Source: Candidatus Nanopelagicales bacterium (GTDB lineage Bacteria > Actinomycetota > Actinomycetes > S36-B12). Taken from it: a stretch of 51,289 nucleotides of DNA. Under the pieces are notes generated by a model. The model searched no databases, was not told where the DNA came from, and saw nothing but the letters and a program-made list of their open reading frames with translations. Below are positions 1 through 34,870 of this stretch, in pieces. The stretch lies in assembly GCA_030726915.1 (NCBI GenBank), contig JANRCR010000050.1, forward strand, positions 1 to 51,289, read 5' to 3'. The position numbers and the translations under genes are program-made. Position 1 is the stretch's first letter; the number at the start of each line of letters is the position of its first letter.

Positions 1-56
1 AGTGGGAGTGGGAGTGGGAGTGGGAGGGGGAGTGGGAGTGGGAGTGGGAGTGGGGG
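1..56. repeat. GTGGGA hexanucleotide tandem repeat (G-rich, runs off the window start)
   Basis: Units of GTGGGA begin at base 2: four perfect copies (2-25), one GGGGGA variant (26-31), three perfect copies (32-49) and a final GTGGGGG. The array is cut by the window edge, so its full length is unknown. It contains nine or more G-runs of at least three bases separated by AGT, which is G-quadruplex-compatible on the + strand. It ends exactly where the -35 box of the thiolase promoter begins. Confidence 0.9.
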
Positions 57-85
57 TTGTCACCGGGAGTACCGGCGAGTAACGT
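57..85 (+). promoter_or_regulatory. Predicted sigma-70-type promoter of the thiolase-fadB operon
   Basis: TTGTCA at 57-62 and TAACGT at 80-85 are separated by exactly 17 bases, giving a good housekeeping promoter. Transcription would start near base 92, leaving a leader of about 29 bases that contains the Shine-Dalgarno GGAGGAGG at 107-114. The GTGGGA repeat abuts the -35 box on its upstream side, so repeat-length change or G-quadruplex folding could alter promoter strength (inference). Confidence 0.55.
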
Positions 86-120
86 TTGTTGACGGATGCT
101 CAATACGGAGGAGGCCCCCC

Positions 121-1340: not shown

Positions 1341-3503
1341 ATGAGCGACAACATGTTCCACTGGGATAAGGACTCTGACAACGTCGTTGTCCTGACGATG
1401 GACGACCCGGGTGGCAGCGCCAACACTCTCAACGACACCTTCATCACCTCACTCGAGGCGACACTGGATCGCCTGGATGCGGAGAAGGATGACATTGCCG
1501 GTGTGATCGTGACCAGCGCCAAGAAGACCTTCTTCGCCGGTGCCGATCTCAACATGATCATTCAGGCAACCCCCGCCGACGCGGAGCGGCTCGAGAAGGA
1601 GATCGCGCGCGTCAAGGCGGCCTTCCGACGCCTGGAAACGATGGGCAAGCCGGTTGCCGCGGCGATCAATGGCGCGGCGCTGGGCGGCGGTCTGGAGATT
1701 GCTCTGGCCTGCCATCACCGTGTGGCGCTCGATGTCAAGGGCAGTGAGATCGGACTGCCTGAGGTGACGCTAGGCCTGCTTCCCGGCGCGGGTGGTGTCG
1801 TACGCACGACGCGTATGTTTGGCCTGCAGAAGGCACTCATGGAGGTGCTCCTCCAGGGTCAGCGACGCAAACCGGCCGACGCACTCGCGAAGGGTCTCGT
1901 TGATGAGATCGCATCGACGCCCGAAGAGATGCTAGCCATGGCCAAGGCGTGGGTTGTGGCCAACCCCGAGGCGGTACAGCCGTGGGATGCGCCGGGCTAC
2001 AAGATGCCCGGAGGTACGCCGAGCAACCCCAAACTCGCCATGATGCTCCCGGCGTTCCCCGCCAATTTGCGCAAGCAGATCAAGGGCGCACCGATGCCCG
2101 CGCCGCTGGCCATCATGGCCGCCTCGGTCGAAGGTGCCCAGGTCGACTTCGCGACAGCCGAAAAGATCGAGGCCCGCTATTTCGCAAGCCTGGCCACCGG
2201 CCAGGTCGCCAAGAACATGACGCAGGCTTTCTTCTTTGACCTGCAGCACATCACCAAGGGTGGCGCACGCCCCGAGGGCTACCCGCAGTACAAGCCGACC
2301 AAGGGCCTCATCATGGGCGCCGGGATGATGGGCGCCGGCATTTCCTATGTTTGCGCCCGCAACGGCATCGACGTGGTCCTTGTGGACACGACGCTGGAGG
2401 CCGCGGAGAAGGGTAAGGCCTACTCGCAGGGAATCCTGGACAAGGCAGTCTCGCGCGGCAAGATGACTGAGGCCGCGCGTGACGAGGTGCTCGCGCGCAT
2501 CACACCGAGCGATTCCCTCGACCTCGCCAAGGGTGCAGATTTCGTCATTGAGGCGGTCTTTGAGAACCAGGCGCTCAAGAACGAGACCTTCGGTCGCATG
2601 GAGCCGATCCTCGCCGCTGACGCCCTCCTGGCCTCCAACACATCAACGCTGCCGATCACGGGCCTGGCACAGGGTGTCTCGCGTCCGGCGGACTTCATCG
2701 GCCTGCACTTCTTCTCGCCGGTCGACAAGATGCCGCTCCTGGAGATCGTCGTCGGCGAGAAGACCTCCGACGCCACCATCGCGAAGGCACTGGATGTCGC
2801 TGCGGCGATCAAGAAGACCCCGATCGTCGTCAATGACAGCCGTGGCTTCTTCACCAGTCGCGTCATCGGCACCTTCATGGGTGAAGCCGTGGCCATGCTG
2901 TCCGAGGGTGTGCCCGCGCCGTCCATCGAGCAGGCCGCATTGCAGTCGGGCTATCCCACCGGGCCGTTGGCGCTCTTCGACGAGGTCAGCCTGACACTGG
3001 GTCGCCGCATCCGAGAGGAGGGCCGGGTCTCGGCAGAGGGATCGGGAACGGCGTTCCCCGACCACCCCTCATACCCGGCCATCGACCGCATGGTCGTGGA
3101 GTTTGAGCGGGGCGGGCGCGCTGCTGGCGCGGGCTTCTACGACTACGCCGAGGGCAAGCGCCTAGGCCTGTGGGACGGCCTCGTGGACAACTTCGGCGGC
3201 ACCAACCTCGATATGCCCTTCGAGGACATGAAGGAGCGGATGCTCTTCGCCGAGGCCATCGAGTCGGTGAAGTGCTACGACGAGGGCGTGCTGCGCTCGG
3301 TGCCCGAAGCCAATATCGGTTCGATCTTCGGCATCGGCTTCCCGCCGTGGACCGGTGGCGTGCTGCAGTACATCAACGGCTACCCCGGCGGACCCGCCGG
3401 ATTCGTCGCGCGAGCTCGTGAGCTCGCGGCGGCGTACGGGGACCGCTTCACCCCGCCGGCCTCGCTCGTCGCCCTAGCCGATTCTGGTGGGCGCTACTCC
3501 TGA
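1341..3503 (+). CDS. fadB: Fatty-acid oxidation multifunctional protein: enoyl-CoA hydratase / 3-hydroxyacyl-CoA dehydrogenase
   Basis: The 720-residue protein joins an N-terminal crotonase domain to a 3-hydroxyacyl-CoA dehydrogenase. In the crotonase half the catalytic pair appears as Glu119 (GGGLEIAL) and Glu141 (PEVTLGLLPGAGG). The NAD-binding Rossmann motif GAGMMGAG is at 326-333, and the dehydrogenase catalytic His456 lies in GLHFFSP with Glu468 downstream. Two C-terminal dehydrogenase domains follow. It performs hydration and NAD-dependent oxidation of enoyl-CoA and hands ketoacyl-CoA to the thiolase just upstream. An earlier in-frame start at 1284 lies inside the thiolase gene; ATG 1341 is preferred because GAGGAG at 1331-1336 precedes it at proper spacing. 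The C-terminus overlaps the earliest possible TetR start. Confidence 0.93.
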   Translation: MSDNMFHWDKDSDNVVVLTMDDPGGSANTLNDTFITSLEATLDRLDAEKDDIAGVIVTSAKKTFFAGADLNMIIQATPADAERLEKEIARVKAAFRRLETMGKPVAAAINGAALGGGLEIALACHHRVALDVKGSEIGLPEVTLGLLPGAGGVVRTTRMFGLQKALMEVLLQGQRRKPADALAKGLVDEIASTPEEMLAMAKAWVVANPEAVQPWDAPGYKMPGGTPSNPKLAMMLPAFPANLRKQIKGAPMPAPLAIMAASVEGAQVDFATAEKIEARYFASLATGQVAKNMTQAFFFDLQHITKGGARPEGYPQYKPTKGLIMGAGMMGAGISYVCARNGIDVVLVDTTLEAAEKGKAYSQGILDKAVSRGKMTEAARDEVLARITPSDSLDLAKGADFVIEAVFENQALKNETFGRMEPILAADALLASNTSTLPITGLAQGVSRPADFIGLHFFSPVDKMPLLEIVVGEKTSDATIAKALDVAAAIKKTPIVVNDSRGFFTSRVIGTFMGEAVAMLSEGVPAPSIEQAALQSGYPTGPLALFDEVSLTLGRRIREEGRVSAEGSGTAFPDHPSYPAIDRMVVEFERGGRAAGAGFYDYAEGKRLGLWDGLVDNFGGTNLDMPFEDMKERMLFAEAIESVKCYDEGVLRSVPEANIGSIFGIGFPPWTGGVLQYINGYPGGPAGFVARARELAAAYGDRFTPPASLVALADSGGRYS

Positions 3504-3507
3504 GCCG

Positions 3508-4110
3508 GTGAGCGCTGCTGGACCTCGTGGCCTGGCAGCGCCGCCCGCTCGCATGTCCCGGGAGGATCGTCGACGCCAACTCGTCGAGATCGGCTGGCAG
3601 TTGCTACAGACTCGGCCGATCCACGAGATGGCTCTGGATGAGGTCGCAGCAGAAGCTGGCATCTCACGGACGCTCCTTTTCCACTACTTCCCAACCAAGG
3701 GAGACTTCTACGCCGCCGTGATCCAATCGGCCGGCGAGCACCTGCTGCGCCCGGTGCGTGTGCCCGAGGGCGCATCTCCGGTGGAGCGCGTCAGCACCCT
3801 GGTCGACGGGTTTGTGCGCCTGGTTGAGCGCAATCGGCCCGCCTACGCCGCACTCGTGCGCGGCGCGGGTGGGGGAGATCAGCGGGTCGTCGGACTCATC
3901 GGCGAGATCCGGGACTCCCTGGTGCCCAAGTGGCTCGCTGCTGCGGAGTGGTCCGACGAGGATTCACTCGCCCGCCTCGTCGTGCGTGGGTGGCTCGTCG
4001 GCATGGAGGAGACTGTGTTGGCCTGGAACCCCAGCACCGTGGAGCGTTCTCGCCTGGTGCGTCATCTGACACGCTCACTCTTCGCTGAATTGGAGCTCAC
4101 ACAATCATGA
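3508..4110 (+). CDS. TetR/AcrR-family transcriptional regulator
   Basis: A helix-turn-helix of the TetR type is visible near the N-terminus (DEVAAEAGISRTLLFHYFPT), followed by a helical ligand-binding domain, about 200 residues in all. It sits directly behind the thiolase-fadB pair, so a FadR-like repressor sensing acyl-CoA is plausible, but the ligand domain gives no direct clue. The start is uncertain. GTG 3508 lies 5 nt after the fadB stop; GTG 3487 would overlap fadB, and ATG 3553 would still keep the whole DNA-binding domain. No clear Shine-Dalgarno separates the options. The downstream gene overlaps the stop by 4 nt (ATGA). Confidence 0.85.
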   Translation: MSAAGPRGLAAPPARMSREDRRRQLVEIGWQLLQTRPIHEMALDEVAAEAGISRTLLFHYFPTKGDFYAAVIQSAGEHLLRPVRVPEGASPVERVSTLVDGFVRLVERNRPAYAALVRGAGGGDQRVVGLIGEIRDSLVPKWLAAAEWSDEDSLARLVVRGWLVGMEETVLAWNPSTVERSRLVRHLTRSLFAELELTQS

Positions 4111-34751: not shown

Positions 34752-34802
34752 CCGTTCTCCGGGCGGATTCGCTCACCGGGTGAACGTTTTCGCCCGTAGA
34801 AC
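34752..34802. repeat. Imperfect inverted repeat, large hairpin upstream of radA
   Basis: GTTCTCCGGGCG (34754-34765) pairs with CGCCCGTAGAAC (34791-34802) with one mismatch. Nested inside is a second palindrome around TCACCGGGTGA (34773-34783). The outer arm is the reverse complement of the 20-bp units that follow. Confidence 0.7.
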
Positions 34803-34870
34803 GGCTGCGCCGCCCGGAGAACGGCTGCGCCGCCCGGAGAACGGCTGCGGCGCCCGAAGAACTGCGCCGG
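34791..34870. repeat. 20-bp tandem repeat, about four units
   Basis: The unit CGCCCGGAGAACGGCTGCGC is seen at 34791-34810 (one change), 34811-34830 (perfect), 34831-34850 (last base changed) and 34851-34870 (decayed, with a deletion). There are no spacers, so it is not CRISPR. The array lies in the 168-nt gap between the radA start and the stop of the cysteine-rich gene. Together with the inverted copy at 34752 it looks like a REP/MITE-type element. Confidence 0.85.

Follow-up and report, generated by a model that had tools for sequence, protein, structure and literature searches.

Introduction

The promoter of nadA in Neisseria meningitidis carries TAAA repeats flanked by operators for the repressor NadR; these repeats tune expression, and their length variants have been measured (PMC2791445). 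Repeats of the G3 type are reported as unstable and as destabilizing DNA in E. coli (PMC7023247). Among the TetR-type local regulators surveyed in Streptomyces, the divergent gene arrangement is reported as the commonest and most predictive (PMC3511530).

The locus described here opens the window, that is, the whole stretch of 51,289 nucleotides analyzed, which corresponds to bases 1-51,289 of contig C50 (59,302 bases) in a Candidatus Nanopelagicales genome of 2.20 Mb (56 contigs, 95.28% complete). As at nadA, a short tandem repeat lies upstream of a promoter with its own putative repressor site. The nadA operators flank the repeat, whereas here a single repressor-type site is found downstream of the array and the left side lies beyond the contig; moreover, the nadA length variants were measured, whereas the C50 array is known from one assembly. 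The locus also resembles those of actinobacterial TetR local regulators in having a TetR gene beside its presumed targets and an inverted repeat over the promoter but, unlike the divergent arrangement of the Streptomyces survey, the TetR gene is the last of the same operon. A literature search returned no paper that we recognized as describing this array.

The reading that we favor, and hold to be probable, is that a TetR-autoregulated fadA-fadB-tetR operon has a lineage-specific G-rich microsatellite immediately 5′ of its promoter, and that the short-read assembly stopped inside this array.

The G-rich array and the contig edge

A tandem-repeat scan of the window reveals 9.0 copies of AGTGGG at positions 1-54 of the + strand, in 6-bp units with a 95% match; the single variant unit is GGGGGA at 26-31. 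The earlier note had described at least nine hexamer units ending at base 56: nine are visible, and the end point is not correct, the AGTGGG period stopping at 54 and leaving bases 55-56 (GG) outside it. A four-unit match with at most three mismatches occurs six times in the window, always inside the array, whereas 100 dinucleotide shuffles yield none; the array is beyond chance and real in the sequence. The same note stated that its full extent is hidden, and proposed reading further to the left. The contig has no sequence there: the window opens with the first base of C50, and the array is cut at its left, and looked cut, because the contig begins at that point, so that the cut is made by the assembly and not just by the window. 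The top-scoring array of the window is a different one, a 20-bp tandem repeat of 3.6 copies (94% match) at 34791-34862.

Both ends of all 56 contigs were compared, and hits of the N-filled C1 and C8 ends to each other were ignored. This comparison reveals eight pairs overlapping by exactly 55 bases, together with single overlaps of 51, 32, 31, 20, and 17 bases; from the eight exact 55-base overlaps it follows that the genome was assembled by a de Bruijn method with k = 55. The cleanest case of a break at k is contig C16 of G000, where a perfect 16-bp array fills bases 1-55 (L181), exactly 55 in all. Tandem repeats scoring at least 50 and reaching the last 60 bases are present at 11 of 108 contig ends (four masked ends dropped) versus 4 of 672 interior pieces (p = 1.9e-7). 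The ends of C19 (L241) and C51 (L272) of G000 both finish in 15-bp repeats and have a 51-base overlap in common; these are perhaps, we assume, parts of one pentapeptide-repeat gene split over two contigs.

The C50 array thus stands at a contig terminus of a de Bruijn assembly, with a length of about k. A toy graph with k = 55 breaks at pure arrays of 66 and 120 bases, of which 55 bases are kept, and runs unbroken through arrays of 48 and 54 bases. Since breaks arise only at the longer arrays, the real length of the C50 array is probably more than 60 bases. The visible 54 bases match the word size of the assembler and do not give the number of units. The simple pure-loop model does not fit C50 precisely, its tip possessing 54 periodic bases with a variant unit inside and not the 55 seen at the C16 tip; in the toy graph, a pure array to which one variant unit and then four further units are added retains 83 bases, not 55. 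Heterogeneous units, a strain mixture or a drop in coverage would be needed to reconcile C50 with the model.

Promoter and putative operator

The array adjoins the promoter. A −35 element, TTGTCA (57-62, + strand), is followed after a 17-base spacer by a −10 element, TAACGT (80-85, + strand), as the earlier note had indicated. The fadA promoter was aligned with those of ten relatives, namely G002, G003, G005, G006, G007, G008, and G010 of the same genus, G020 and G031 of the same family, and L070. TTG occupies the same column in all 11 promoters, window included, as does TANNNT 17 bases past the −35 hexamer, and TTG-N20-TANNNT is thereby found at the same position in 10/10 relatives. A sigma-70 scan of positions 1-400 returned no promoter because the pair fits the consensus at just 8 of 12 positions. 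A promoter at 57-85 is accordingly supported by conservation rather than by fit to the consensus, and its proposed role as the promoter of the thiolase-fadB operon gains support from the position of the conserved pair upstream of fadA and from the annotation of the genes. We take this TTG/TANNNT pair to be the operon promoter.

The spacer around 71-85 (TTACCGGCGAGTAA-like in the relatives) comes close to a palindrome and is largely conserved within the genus; in L104 and L070 it has diverged while both promoter elements are retained. It may possibly hold a second protein site, but in view of this divergence a second operator is not claimed.

Downstream of the −10 element lies an inverted repeat, TTGACGGATGCTCAA, at 89-103 (+ strand), of which the conserved form, TTGACNNNTGCTCAA, is present in 11/11 promoters including that of the window. 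It reads TTGAC-N3-TGCTCAA, with arms TTGA/TCAA, and begins two to five bases past the −10 element. Judged by the usual distance from a −10 element it would cover the transcription start, and it is the candidate operator for a TetR-type protein. The genome possesses one perfect copy of TTGACNNNTGCTCAA, that at 89-103, and a search for perfect sites found no further operator within the visible bases 1-56. This lone perfect copy at the fadA promoter makes a local regulator likelier than a global one. With up to two mismatches there are 89 sites in the genome versus 51 for the reversed pattern; given these counts and the single perfect copy, a wider regulon is not claimed. The sequence around all four one-mismatch sites was inspected; no fatty-acid gene was noticed by eye among the open reading frames around two of them, L139 and L137, the latter site lying inside a frame of 450 amino acids.

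The fadA-fadB-tetR operon

A ribosome-binding site, GGAGGAGG (107-114, + strand), precedes three genes on the + strand. The first (121-1332) encodes a fadA-type thiolase (acetyl-CoA C-acetyltransferase; Pfam PF00108 and PF02803), which scores 701 bits against the NCBIfam model NF006090 (cut-off 514). The second (1341-3503) specifies a fadB/fadJ-type hydratase-dehydrogenase with PF02737, PF00378, and PF00725, and falls under the NCBIfam equivalog cut-offs. The third (3487-4110) overlaps the end of fadB and encodes a TetR-family protein, the presumed local regulator, with PF00440 and PF21943 above cut-off; its start is the GTG at 3487, and in an alignment of the TetR proteins conservation sets in at about residue 22 of the window frame. 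It belongs to the same family as FasR, KstR, and EthR, and the structures of EthR and KstR are matched; its score against the FasR model is 54 bits, far under the cut-off of 330 bits, and its best match among solved structures is 2qib, a TetR protein to which no functional name has been given. In a plasmid search 363 records match; the five matches listed all start within the thiolase gene or just ahead of it, none before query base 119.

The inverted repeat and the TetR gene occur together. In a survey of 42 loci the repeat was found in nine and was absent from 33. In eight of the nine a TetR gene follows fadB, with products 63-74% identical; the ninth, L064, ends 989 bases past the thiolase gene. 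Counting the window, TetR follows fadB in 9/9 repeat-bearing loci that could be judged. The 33 loci without the repeat yielded three weak TetR matches (25-34% over 92-99 residues), one of them on the opposite strand. Restricting the comparison to loci with about 4 kb past the thiolase gene, TetR is found after fadB in 8/8 loci with the repeat versus 2/26 without it (both weak matches); Fisher's p is 2.5e-6 if the loci are treated as independent, though the eight are related. Because the ten relatives are kin, part of both the conservation and the co-occurrence reflects shared descent.

From this arrangement we surmise that the inverted repeat over the presumed transcription start is most likely the binding site of the TetR-type protein, which, when bound, would repress its own fadA-fadB-tetR operon. 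A ligand, plausibly an acyl-CoA or similar compound as the protein family and the pathway suggest, would release the protein.

The array and its left flank among relatives

The close relatives are metagenome-assembled actinobacteria, several of them Candidatus Nanopelagicales. The array is absent from all ten of the aligned fadA promoters of these other species, including that of G002, whose thiolase is 98% identical; in these ten the repeat is not kept at the locus. Within the order a four-unit match with at most one mismatch occurs in 2 of 166 genomes, one of which is the source genome; the other, G124, has one match versus five for the reversed control. Among the lineages compared, then, the array appears to be specific to this one. 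In the relative L069 a G-rich purine tract, GGGGAGGGGAGAGGGG, lies directly 5′ of the −35 element, and L068 has a G-rich tract near its promoter; both are possible seeds for expansion of such an array.

The position of the array raises the question of whether sequencing or assembly error at the contig tip accounts for it in part or in full. It lies at the extreme end, it is the only one of its kind in the genome, and it recurs on none of the other contig ends of the assembly, so that no missing left arm was found there. Its units, however, are clean, and the L069 tract just before the −35 offers a plausible natural origin; we regard an artefact as unlikely.

In L064, L068, and L069 the region to the left of fadA holds an oppositely oriented gene for a NadR-like ATPase (that of L064 matches AAA_28) followed by hutI; in L069, hutU lies further out. 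The hut names were assigned by reading of the sequences. Searches of the source assembly, run without a positive-control genome, returned no match for hutU or the ATPase and weak partial matches for hutI; these neighbors were therefore of no use as a bridge over the array. Their lack could be due to an assembly gap or to loss, both being possible. Were it loss, the array would mark a rearrangement joint at which the hut genes and the ATPase gene once left of fadA had disappeared, as their position in the relatives and the absent or weak matches might suggest. The assembly, however, is 95.28% complete and stops exactly at this point, so that a missing contig explains the finding equally well, and the searches had no positive control; a rearrangement joint is in our judgment improbable.

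Possible effects of the array on expression

The earlier note proposed that slippage and G-quadruplex (G4) folding of the array would tune β-oxidation. Such tuning is possible but unsupported; it is conceivable because nadA repeats near repressor sites tune expression and because G3 repeats show instability in E. coli. The ten aligned relatives all lack the array, its visible extent matches k, and the conserved signals (−35, −10, and inverted repeat) all lie downstream of it.

By a nadA-like mechanism, slippage would change the unit number and thereby bring an upstream protein site nearer to, or farther from, the promoter or operator, so that expression variants arise. The array does lie directly upstream of the −35 element, a repressor-type site is located in the same promoter, and the Neisseria repeats, flanked by repressor operators, act in this manner (PMC2791445). 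Nevertheless, none of the ten aligned relatives possesses the array, and the visible bases 1-56 hold no second copy of the operator, the one perfect site being at 89-103. To our knowledge, moreover, β-oxidation is not a typical contingency function. Such a mechanism therefore seems very unlikely.

The + strand of the array contains two canonical G4 motifs (4-24 and 26-48), each of four G3 runs with short loops, and the G4Hunter mean over 1-56 is 1.98. Folding of this strand might alter promoter opening or replication, and the destabilization of DNA by G3-type repeats in E. coli, reported in PMC7023247, would be congruent with this. Four further G4 motifs (three on the + strand, one on the −), however, are found in the 51-kb window outside the array, and within 250 bases upstream of fadA a motif occurs on the + strand in just 1/10 relatives and on the − strand in 2/10. 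The motif is thus not kept, and a role in controlling β-oxidation is highly improbable. We infer, in keeping with the preferred reading, that the array upstream of the TetR-controlled promoter is most likely a neutral microsatellite.

Implications

A bolder reading would have an array of more than 60 bases, arisen in this one lineage by recent expansion of a purine tract immediately upstream of a fadAB promoter under TetR control; the varying length and G4 folding of this array would lead to differing levels of β-oxidation among cells of one population. We give this very little credence; if true, a free-living actinobacterium would possess a contingency locus in its central metabolism. The C50 tip, where the number of units matches the k of the assembler, warns against taking an assembly edge for biology. 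The conserved signals yield a testable prediction, namely that TTGAC-N3-TGCTCAA would be the TetR operator of the fadA-fadB-tetR operon in actinobacteria related to Candidatus Nanopelagicales.
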